IMG/VR virus record: IMGVR_UViG_3300046005_000748
Coordinates: 1-35,638 of that record
Strand: one strand, 5' to 3'
DNA: 35,638 bases
Source: a virus
The translations under genes were made by a program, and so were the position numbers. Every line of letters starts with the position of its first letter. Position 1 is the stretch's first letter. Under the pieces are notes generated by a model. It was not told the DNA's origin, did no database searches, and worked only from the letters and a program-made list of their open reading frames with translations. Of the stretch, positions 5,218 through 6,677 are shown piece by piece.

Positions 5218-5766
5218 ATGAAAGTAAAAGACTTACCAAAGGTAATTAAGAAGAGAGCAATGGTTTATATTAAGGAAAATTTCCCAAATAAAAAAAATAG
5301 ACCTAAATATTTAGGTTCAGCATTTACTTGGGAAGATACAACAGAAAAGCAAGAGTATTGGTTATTAGTTTATTATGGAAAATTTATTGAAGCTGAAAAC
5401 TTATTGTTAGAAAGACTTAAAGAAGAAAACCCTATTTTGTATAAGTTAAATCAACTAAATGAAGATGCTTGTATGAATGGATTGTCTTCAAAAGCATTAA
5501 ATAGCAACCCATTCTTCTTAGATGAAGCTTTAGATGTTAAGGTTAATGAGCCAGAGGTTGTACCTTACAAAGATGAGTATATGAAAATTGATCCTATAGT
5601 AAATAGTGTCATAGATAAGTTTCTACATAGAAGTCGTGTAGGGATTGAAAAGTATGGCACAACACTTGCTGAAAACAATACAGATGATTTTTATAACCAT
5701 CTACAAGAAGAATTGATGGATGCGATTTTGTATTTGCAGAAGATTAAAGAACTTAAAAACAAATAA
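5218..5766 (+). CDS. MazG-like NTP pyrophosphohydrolase domain protein
   Basis: A 182-residue protein in two parts. Residues about 1-110 are unfamiliar and helix-rich (KVKDLPKVIKKRAMVYIKEN, then TEKQEYWLLVYYGKF). The C-terminal 55 residues read VIDKFLHRSRVGIEKYGTTL and then HLQEELMDAILYLQKIKELK. This E-E-L-x-D-A helix is the metal-binding core of MazG-like all-alpha pyrophosphatases carried by many phages. Such enzymes hydrolyse nucleoside triphosphates, and in phages they are thought to trim nucleotide pools or (p)ppGpp. It follows the methylase relic by 20 bases and precedes a small zinc-ribbon gene by three bases. Confidence 0.72.
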   Translation: MKVKDLPKVIKKRAMVYIKENFPNKKNRPKYLGSAFTWEDTTEKQEYWLLVYYGKFIEAENLLLERLKEENPILYKLNQLNEDACMNGLSSKALNSNPFFLDEALDVKVNEPEVVPYKDEYMKIDPIVNSVIDKFLHRSRVGIEKYGTTLAENNTDDFYNHLQEELMDAILYLQKIKELKNK

Positions 5767-5883: not shown

Positions 5884-5909
5884 CCAAATGTATATTTTTA
5901 TAAATACTT

Positions 5910-5942
5910 TTGGCTGTATATAAACAAATTTGTTTATATTTG
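5910..5942 (+). promoter_or_regulatory. promoter of the small-RNA unit
   Basis: TATATTTG (5935-5942) matches the Bacteroidota -7 box. TTG at 5910-5912 is 22 bases upstream, slightly longer than the usual 19-20. The start site would fall at about 5947-5950, almost exactly at the 5' end of the tRNA-like acceptor stem. Confidence 0.65.
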
Positions 5943-5952
5943 CAATTCAAAG

Positions 5953-6105
5953 TCAGATGTGGCGGAATGCTTATAATGTGAGTTAAATCGTTAAGGTGTT
6001 TAATTCCTGTTATAACTTGGTCAGACGCAACCCCGAACTGCTTGTAAAAGTGGGTAATTAGATAATCGTAAGCTAATTATACAGGTTCAAATCCTGTCAT
6101 CTGAC
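5953..6105 (+). tRNA. class II tRNA-like fold (Leu-type D-arm) with a hairpin insertion; identity unresolved
   Basis: TCAGATG (5953-5959) pairs perfectly with CATCTGA (6098-6104). The spacer TG and GCGGAAT follow, as in tRNA-Leu D-arms, and the other D-arm half GGTCAGACGC is found only from about 6018. The T-arm is ACAGG-TTCAAAT-CCTGT (6081-6097). The variable arm is TAATTAG/CTAATTA. Between the two D-arm halves lies a hairpin of about 49 nt (TTATAA/TTATAA outside, GAGTTAAA/TTTAATTC inside). The anticodon arm does not form a standard 5-bp stem with a 7-nt loop: ACCC and GGGT pair, but enclose 18 nt. A CTTGTAAAAG segment could supply a GTA anticodon in an 8-nt loop. At about 153 nt it is far longer than a normal 85-90 nt class II tRNA. 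It may be an interrupted, degenerate or non-canonical tRNA. Confidence 0.45.
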
Positions 6106-6231
6106 CTAAAAAACCATCTATGCGTAAGAATCTTTGGCAAAGCTCTAAAGTAGATTGTTGTAATGGTCGTATCTCTGTAGTGCGTAGTATGGGGAGTATT
6201 CATAATAGCTACAAATTACAATATGCTTGAC

Positions 6232-6253
6232 AACCTGGAGAGACAGGTTTTTT
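6232..6253 (+). terminator. rho-independent terminator of the small-RNA unit
   Basis: AACCTG (6232-6237) pairs with CAGGTT (6244-6249) over a GAGAGA loop, followed by a six-T run (6248-6253). Confidence 0.8.
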
Positions 6254-6284
6254 ATCGCACTCAACATTGTTAATAACTTTAACT

Positions 6285-6315
6285 TTGAAACGTATTAAAT
6301 AATTTTGTATCTTTG
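6285..6315 (+). promoter_or_regulatory. promoter upstream of the pseudoknot leader
   Basis: TTG at 6285-6287 and TATCTTTG at 6308-6315 with a 20-base spacer match the Bacteroidota consensus well. Expected start near 6320. It follows the preceding terminator by about 30 bases, so the downstream genes form a new transcription unit. Confidence 0.7.
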
Positions 6316-6319
6316 TACC

Positions 6320-6431
6320 GCAATCCATCACTTGCAAGGAAAATATTAGCTAATTTATTTAGCAACAGACAAACCCTTTAAGATGTGTGATGGCTCTTGG
6401 AGGGTTTTGTCATTTAAAAAATATAAGTAAA
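6320..6431 (+). promoter_or_regulatory. 5' leader able to form an H-type pseudoknot
   Basis: About 110 untranslated bases separate the predicted start from ATG 6432, long for this genome. CCATCAC (6325-6331) is perfectly complementary to GTGATGG (6387-6393). GACAAACCCT (6368-6377) pairs with AGGGTTTTGTC (6401-6411), ten pairs with one bulged T. The two helices interleave, so together they make a pseudoknot; separately they are alternatives. The second helix ends 20 bases before the ATG and is not followed by a T-run, so control of translation is more likely than termination. No known riboswitch class is recognised. Confidence 0.5.
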
Positions 6432-6677
6432 ATGAAGAAACCATTTAAAATTTCAGAATCAAACCAAAGATTAATTCAAGGAATTGCTGACGATTATTTC
6501 GGAGGACACTTTACAATCTTAACATTCACAACTTGCTATTCATTTATGTTTGGAACGCCAAGCGATAGAGATGATGTATCAGGTTTAGAAAGTTTTTATG
6601 ACATAAACGATGCTATAGTAGATTCAGTTCAAAAATTTATTGTTAATTTTAAAGATGGAGATTATGGCAGAAAATAA
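6432..6677 (+). CDS. hypothetical protein (81 aa) under the structured leader
   Basis: ATG 6432 is chosen over an upstream in-frame GTG at 6387, because the latter lies inside the leader pseudoknot helix and would add an unlikely N-terminus. The 81-residue product (MKKPFKISESNQRLIQGIAD...) has a hydrophobic central stretch (HFTILTFTTCYSFMF) too polar for a clear membrane helix, and an acidic helical C-terminal half (DINDAIVDSVQKFIVNF). Family not recognised. It overlaps the following HNH gene by 14 bases and stands at the head of the replication-initiation operon. Confidence 0.6.
   Translation: MKKPFKISESNQRLIQGIADDYFGGHFTILTFTTCYSFMFGTPSDRDDVSGLESFYDINDAIVDSVQKFIVNFKDGDYGRK

Follow-up and report, generated by a model that had tools for sequence, protein, structure and literature searches.

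The RNA element analysed here lies in a 35,638-nucleotide stretch of viral DNA (the window), a source record of 35.6 kb related to the Elemovirus phages of Flavobacterium. It sits between a protein gene that ends at position 5766 and a group of replication genes. A -7 box over a palindrome comes first, followed by two structured parts, the first of them tRNA-like, and by a T-run hairpin reaching 6253 (Table 1). The promoter, structured non-coding RNA and terminator claimed by an earlier, sequence-only reading could all be located. The element is best explained as a phage gene standing on its own that encodes a non-coding RNA of about 300 nt with two domains. The -7 box occupies an identical position in five of the loci collected for comparison (designated by L-numbers: L003, L004, L005, L006 and L069), and the 5' strand of the acceptor begins 9 nt past its end; a -33 match (TTTG, 5909-5912) is weak because its spacing to the -7 box is 22 nt. 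The palindrome is probably an operator: L004 and L006 retain it, with changes that are symmetrical (GTAAACAAATTTGTTTAC), and L069 nearly does. In a BLAST comparison of the element with isolate phages, this promoter/operator stretch was the sole match. A palindrome-like stretch is also seen upstream in many Flavobacterium LMO6/LMO9 phages, and the palindrome is likely to be a repressor site common to these phages. At the other end of the gene, the terminal hairpin is a probable intrinsic terminator.

Table 1. Features of the RNA gene in the window.
Feature	Position	Strand	Remarks
Palindrome TATAAACAAATTTGTTTATA	5919-5938	.	perfect, 20 bp; overlaps promoter
-7 box TATATTTG	5935-5942	+	Bacteroidota-type promoter
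tRNA-like domain	5952-6105	+	tRNA-Leu-type frame without usable anticodon
Acceptor 5' strand GTCAGATG	5952-5959	+	G-1 plus 7 bp; partner 6098-6105
D-arm	5962-6028	+	stem GCG 5962-5964 / CGC 6026-6028; conserved GG 6019-6020 in loop
D-loop insert	5969-6016	+	48-nt hairpin; conserved TGTGAG...CCTG
Hairpin CUGCUU-GUAA-AAGUGG	6038-6053	+	GNRA-type tetraloop; occupies anticodon-arm place
Long variable arm	6054-6080	+	8-bp hairpin GTAATTAG/CTAATTAT
T-arm ACAGG-TTCAAAT-CCTGT	6081-6097	+	AAAGG/CCTTT in L004
Acceptor 3' strand CATCTGAC	6098-6105	+	final base C73 paired with G-1
3' pseudoknotted domain	6112-6255 (model match)	+	covariance model R1, 139.7 bits
P1 5' strand	6114-6124	+	partner 6181-6192; interleaved with P3/P4
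P2 hairpin CTTTGG/CTAAAG	6132-6150	+	comparative alignment
P3 5' strand TTGTAAT	6158-6164	+	partner 6215-6221; 100% paired, two-sided changes in 6/7 pairs
P4 5' strand TGTAG	6176-6180	+	partner 6209-6213; 100% paired, two-sided changes in 4/5 pairs
P1 3' strand TGCGTAGTATGG	6181-6192	+	partner 6114-6124
Terminal hairpin ACCTG-GAGAGA-CAGGT plus T-run	6233-6253	+	stem covaries in 5/5 pairs; loop GRRAGA conserved

Folded alone, the tRNA-like part forms the acceptor, the D-insert hairpin, the hairpin at the anticodon-arm place, the variable arm and the T-arm at -40.2 kcal/mol, an energy that beats dinucleotide shuffles (z -2.3, 3/200); the short D-stem is conserved in sequence but missing from the MFE fold. 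The domain has the acceptor stem, the T-arm with a TTCRANY loop and the D-stem with GG of a canonical tRNA. Its acceptor had been described as a perfect 7-bp stem, and a stem is indeed present at that position, although its length is 8 bp: the best read is TCAGATG/CATCTGA, followed by T8-G9, plus a tRNA-His-like G-1:C73 pair. This additional pair recurs in L004, L005, L006 and L069 and is absent in L321, while the A5-T pair becomes G-C in L004 and L005. The T-arm and long variable arm noted earlier were both found. The anticodon position, by comparison, holds a 6-bp hairpin with a GUAA tetraloop, with no 5-bp stem and 7-nt loop carrying U33, and the GUAA loop cannot serve as an anticodon. Standard tRNA models do not call the region: ARAGORN returned neither a tRNA nor a tmRNA for the element, nothing in Rfam reached the gathering threshold, and the best RF00005 score (18.5 bits against a threshold of 29) came from a misaligned placement beginning in the D-arm. 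The structure thus supports the suggestion that 5952-6105 is a tRNA mimic, without a normal anticodon arm and with stems that are conserved through compensatory base changes in relatives; on both points the earlier reading had named the opposite outcome as grounds for its refutation. The alternative raised at the same time, an unusual tRNA precursor, is less likely because the window has no decodable anticodon loop, though the corresponding Elemovirus locus has a real tRNA-Met.

Related loci indicate how the parts of this unit vary. Along the unit, L004 and L005 are 77% identical to the window and contain its D-loop insert nearly letter by letter, but their middle differs (GTATC-TACTG-GATAC). 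This middle recurs with a compensatory change and without the insert in L203 (GCATC-TACTG-GATGC), an element of the GTCAGG type described below for which ARAGORN gives tRNA-Ser(act); the L004/L005 version can alternatively be read as a 4-bp stem with a 7-nt loop, CTACTGG. In L321, the window's D-insert stands on a covarying outer stem (TAACAA/TTGTTA versus TTATAA/TTATAA) within an element that has another acceptor and another middle, and in L259, where the outer stem also covaries, the insert takes a shortened form. The insert is near-identical in the window, L004, L005 and L321 despite diverged surroundings. Five elements located by means of the D-loop insert alone have acceptors that pair in 7/7 positions and T-stems that pair in 5/5, with four acceptor sequences among them. 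At the corresponding locus, Elemovirus isolates have a normal tRNA-Met(CAU) followed by the same 3' module as in the window, L069 has a tRNA-Trp-like gene and L006 has two tRNA-like elements. A separate observation at this locus concerns L008:1602-1678, which ARAGORN calls as tRNA-Ala(GGC) with the anticodon loop read as 8 nt; this tRNA-Ala-like gene may possibly be a frameshift-type tRNA.

The 3' part of the RNA, previously taken for a separate nested stem structure, turned out to be a pseudoknot. The strands of P1 flank P2 and the 5' strands of P3 and P4, and P1 therefore interleaves with P3/P4. In a MAFFT alignment of seven sequences, P2, P3, P4 and the terminal hairpin occupy nearly the same columns; pairing holds in 96.9% of cells, two-sided changes occur in 17/23 pairs, and covariation is 0.832 versus 0.190 when shuffled (0/500), a signal that is lost when partners are slid. 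The covariance model R1, of which P1 is not part, gave 31 matches, 24 of them distinct, from 50 sources searched together, with 95.7% standard pairs and covariation of 0.856 versus 0.177 shuffled (0/500); because the R1 alignment is fitted to the model, the seven-sequence statistics are the cleaner test. For P1, the best helix in 22 sequences spans 5-14 bp with a mean score of 10.2, compared with a mean of 5.9 and a maximum of 6.7 when partners are swapped among sequences. The nested folding energy of the 3' part and of the whole molecule shows no excess over shuffles, and folding alone would therefore have missed the pseudoknot. Stretches that are conserved and unpaired (AATC before P2, GTAG after P2, GGTCGTATC between P3 and P4, TCATAA before P4' and GRRAGA in the final loop) point to compact folding and tertiary contacts. 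The window contains the P1/P3/P4 pseudoknot, P2 and the terminal GRRAGA hairpin of motif R1. A 36-aa ORF within the domain is interrupted by a stop codon in L004 and was discarded as not conserved.

The pseudoknot domain matches no known family in Rfam, and a keyword search of the open-access literature found no description of it. In the window's group, Elemovirus, L008, L069 and L321 it stands behind a tRNA or a tRNA-like element; in L009, L192, L322, L330, L333 and L335 it comes directly after protein stop codons, and at other loci it is also intergenic, near the next start codon. Judged by these settings, it is an independent module that is not tied to the window's tRNA-like part. The last hairpin has a T-run in some loci and elsewhere continues into the next gene or into a tRNA-like element (L192). 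Copies occur in 3/150 Flavobacterium genomes, where L350 and L352 appear phage-derived and L351 is intergenic. As a role for the pseudoknot, that of a 3'-end module (stabiliser or terminator) fits best; a ribozyme is possible.

Several known systems resemble the window RNA in part. Canonical phage tRNAs (RF00005, including nuclease-evading anticodon-loop variants) have in common with it the acceptor, the D-stem with GG, the T-arm and the Elemovirus tRNA-Met locus, whereas the window has a 48-nt D-loop insert and an 8-bp acceptor, lacks the standard anticodon arm and falls below ARAGORN and Rfam calls. RNAs that resemble tRNA are already known as a kind, among them tmRNA, Y RNAs and the tRNA-like ends of plant viruses. 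In tmRNA, permuted forms included, a tRNA-like domain is likewise combined with a pseudoknot; the tRNA-like part of the window, by contrast, is contiguous at the 5' end, and the element has no tag frame that is kept in relatives and no tmRNA call. A permuted two-piece tmRNA does lie between tRNA-Ile and tRNA-Met genes on one pseudoknot-bearing phage contig (L326:13335-13599; RF04321 57.8 bits, alpha_tmRNA 50.8 bits). Bacterial Y RNAs such as YrlA mimic tRNA and are bound by Ro60; they share with the window RNA a non-coding nature and tRNA D/T features, but the window RNA, like a tRNA, has its ends at the acceptor. The window, whose record is a fragment, contains no TROVE/Ro60 gene. Genes of this type are found near a tRNA/mimic cluster in the phage of L267 (G020:C1:29834-30610) and inside one in the phage of L275 (G022:C1:122228-122440), which recalls the pairing of Ro60 with tRNA-mimicking Y RNAs; with a TROVE gene in 2/18 other phages and none in the window, a general Ro60 link was rejected. 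Theta (HDV-like) ribozymes are also pseudoknotted RNAs that follow phage tRNAs, with most reports from phages of Bacteroidota hosts (PMC10879173). Their strand order is P1-P2-P3-P1'-P4-P2' and they start no more than 5 nt beyond the tRNA 3' end, whereas the order here is P1-(hairpin)-P3-P4-P1'-P4'-P3' and P1 begins at a distance of 8-9 nt from that end (9 nt from C73 in the window); the present pseudoknot, moreover, occurs after protein genes as well and has no HDV-type Rfam match. Strand order and gap together led us to reject a theta-ribozyme assignment.

The tRNA-like half belongs to a large and apparently undescribed phage family of tRNA mimics, with which the window is connected by the D-insert common to L004, L005, L321 and L259. 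A structural scan of the collected loci for a 7-bp acceptor plus T-arm yielded, among elements with a CCTGAC end (the GTCAGG type), 223 distinct sequences, 200 of them with an A1-T72 pair. These elements have in common the frame AGTCAGG-TGGCGGAA(T)GGTAGACGC...ACAGGTTCGAATCCTGT-CCTGACT-AC and are wholly different in sequence between the D-arm and the T-arm. ARAGORN recognises 47, but the anticodons it assigns are scattered or impossible, many having 2 or 4 bases. Their 22-nt 3' signature (T-arm/acceptor) was found in at least 120 stretches among 2.9 million viral contigs and in six among 11.3 million bacterial contigs, all metagenome-assembled and 4-33 kb long. Among 50,697 phage records, no isolate matched the greater part of a 55-nt query joining the two constant ends. 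Two sets of candidates were set aside: a match of cyanophage S-TIP37 to the tRNA frame, which adjoins an integrase and probably represents a fragment of an attachment site, and L062-L066 and others, an unrelated, protein-coding group drawn by the pattern GGTCGTNTCTCTGTAGT.

With other acceptors included, the family comprises 271 distinct elements, of which 106 fall in 37 clusters with a common insert or middle. L135 and L164 have the same D-insert and different middles, and those middles occur without the insert in L229 and L210; an insert of the GGGGTGTCCC type is common to L006, L076, L106, L246 and L314, whose middles differ except that L006 equals L076. The latter two elements have the same body on a fully swapped acceptor (TCAGGTG/CACCTGA versus GGTGCAA/TTGCACC), perfectly paired in both. 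In 11/11 clusters, the consensus folding energy of the middles lies below the mean of column-shuffled alignments (p<0.05 in three). H-type pseudoknots occur in 47% of middles versus 29% in shuffles, with 11/75 at p<=0.05; the proposal that all middles are H-type pseudoknots was rejected, being true of a subclass at best. Comparison across elements indicates that the D-loop inserts, and likewise the structures replacing the anticodon arm, are modules that are conserved, covary and are recombined between elements. Only the acceptor, D-stem and T-arm are constant across the family. Most members have no standard anticodon loop, and some have near-normal anticodon arms; because some are near-normal tRNAs, the family grades into real tRNAs. 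Neither Rfam nor a keyword search of the open-access literature yielded a description of modular non-decoding phage tRNA mimics.

Taken by its structure and relatives, the window RNA is very probably a non-decoding mimic joined to a pseudoknot module. Transcription would begin a few nt before the acceptor and end at the terminal hairpin, the tRNA-like half would be processed as a tRNA is, and the pseudoknot would protect or define the 3' end. Since the mature RNA would be unable to decode, it would most likely act by tying up proteins that recognise tRNA; these might be defence nucleases or toxins that attack tRNA, or other factors that bind it, with the variable modules setting which proteins are bound. 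The parts that are kept (acceptor, D-stem and T-arm) are those that RNase P, RNase Z and the CCA-adding enzyme recognise, as do other proteins that bind the tRNA elbow. The decoy idea fits because tRNA-attacking defences exert a known pressure. Such defences and phage counter-tRNAs are established (PMC10264068, PMC12851939): they include anticodon nucleases, Cas12a3 of Bacteroidetes makes contact with the T-arm and cleaves the CCA tail (PMC12851939), Septu is described as cutting the tRNA variable loop (PMC13096335), and some phage tRNAs have altered anticodon loops (PMC10264068). Granting the identity, a decoy or protein-binding function is plausible, though we would place it somewhat below an even chance. 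For the reading as a whole, a non-decoding mimic that is matured like a tRNA and binds tRNA-recognising proteins, with the pseudoknot as its 3'-end module, we regard the prospects as evenly balanced. An antisense or guide role against the phage's own genome was rejected, as no match was longer than in shuffled controls.

An unlikely but serious alternative is that the element is an RNA-processing unit, in which the tRNA frame is a cutting signal for RNase P/RNase Z, the pseudoknot is self-cleaving or blocks exonucleases, and the mature product is irrelevant. That the acceptor, D-stem and T-arm alone are constant agrees with this, as do the positions of the pseudoknot after tRNAs and stop codons, including the L192 copy between a gene and a tRNA-like element, and the processing of phage tRNA 3' ends by theta ribozymes, mostly in Bacteroidota phages (PMC10879173). 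Middles and D-loop inserts that are conserved and covarying would, however, be superfluous in a bare cutting signal, and in the window the unit, which has no gene to separate, comes with a promoter and terminator of its own; the distance of P1 from the tRNA 3' end and the strand order are likewise unlike those of HDV-like ribozymes. It is improbable that the element is a functional deviant tRNA that tolerates its inserts and decodes through loop nucleotides (ACU in L004/L005, or frameshift suppression with 5-, 6- or 8-nt loops). The real tRNA-Met at the Elemovirus locus, followed by the same 3' module, makes a translational role possible, and the tRNA-Ser(act) call for the insert-free L203 and the histidine-type acceptor point the same way; against these stand the GNRA tetraloop hairpin in place of a 7-nt loop with U33, the lack of a tRNA call by ARAGORN or Rfam, and the absence of a standard anticodon loop from most of the family. 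Still less probable is a cis-regulatory leader, with the tRNA-like part and pseudoknot as a sensor or attenuator for the downstream replication genes: the element lies just 5' of these genes and its position is kept in relatives, yet a separate promoter-like sequence (6284-6315) intervenes before the next gene, the module adjoins many unrelated genes, and the locus in L007 is empty, with no tRNA-like element. A decaying, insertion-torn tRNA pseudogene that survives by chance is very improbable, for although decay can yield D-loop insertions and a replaced anticodon arm, this reading is contradicted by the compensatory changes in the acceptor, T-stem and D-insert stem, and is further opposed by the constancy of the D-insert while its flanks diverge and by the many related elements.

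Extended to the family, the reading as a non-decoding mimic leads to a broader proposal, which we advance tentatively: that the tRNA frame is a natural RNA scaffold in Bacteroidota phages, a constant acceptor/D/T body with exchangeable D-loop and anticodon modules, giving each phage a set of non-decoding mimics directed at host proteins that recognise tRNA, in some cases together with a new class of transcript-finishing pseudoknot. If true, this would be a class of phage RNA effector not recognised before. Phage tRNA genes are increasingly regarded as weapons and shields in the contest for host tRNAs, and non-decoding look-alikes that keep the protein-read parts and are modular elsewhere would indicate RNA-based counter-defence or host control. 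tRNA gene finders miss most such mimics or assign them dubious anticodons. The pseudoknot, for its part, is a strongly covarying RNA family absent from Rfam, and it occurs in cultivable isolates, in which its role is directly testable.

Some further structures were observed in and around these loci. Examined by eye, the leader of the gene that follows the RNA element contains a promoter-like sequence of its own together with a second conserved structure (window 6318-6432; L003:6950-7060; L008:1870-1985; L007:4574-4680), in which the loop of one hairpin (GTGGAGG / TGAGAGC) is complementary to that of a terminator-like stem further downstream (GCCTCCAC / GCTCTCA), in the manner of an attenuator. 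Two further conserved tRNA-like families have expanded D-loops or a fixed core, ACCTCCCCAAGGTT...TTTATGGYAAAG (L117:2053, L138:3589, L179:9955; L134, L174, L179, L209, L235, L313, L317). L009:3085-3930 and L014:2580-4010 are large structured non-coding regions that contain several tRNA-like elements as well as an H-type pseudoknot (GTTGC..ATGTC..GCAAC..GACAT), with an apparent protein gene to the 3' side; in L014, an HNH endonuclease gene is inserted within the repeat GGTTGCTTGATGT. Finally, the hairpin TGACTGATGGAAAGACATCA ends quite different phage structures in L076, L161, L162, L184, L191 and L192, in some cases with a T-run and in others directly 5' of a tRNA-like element.
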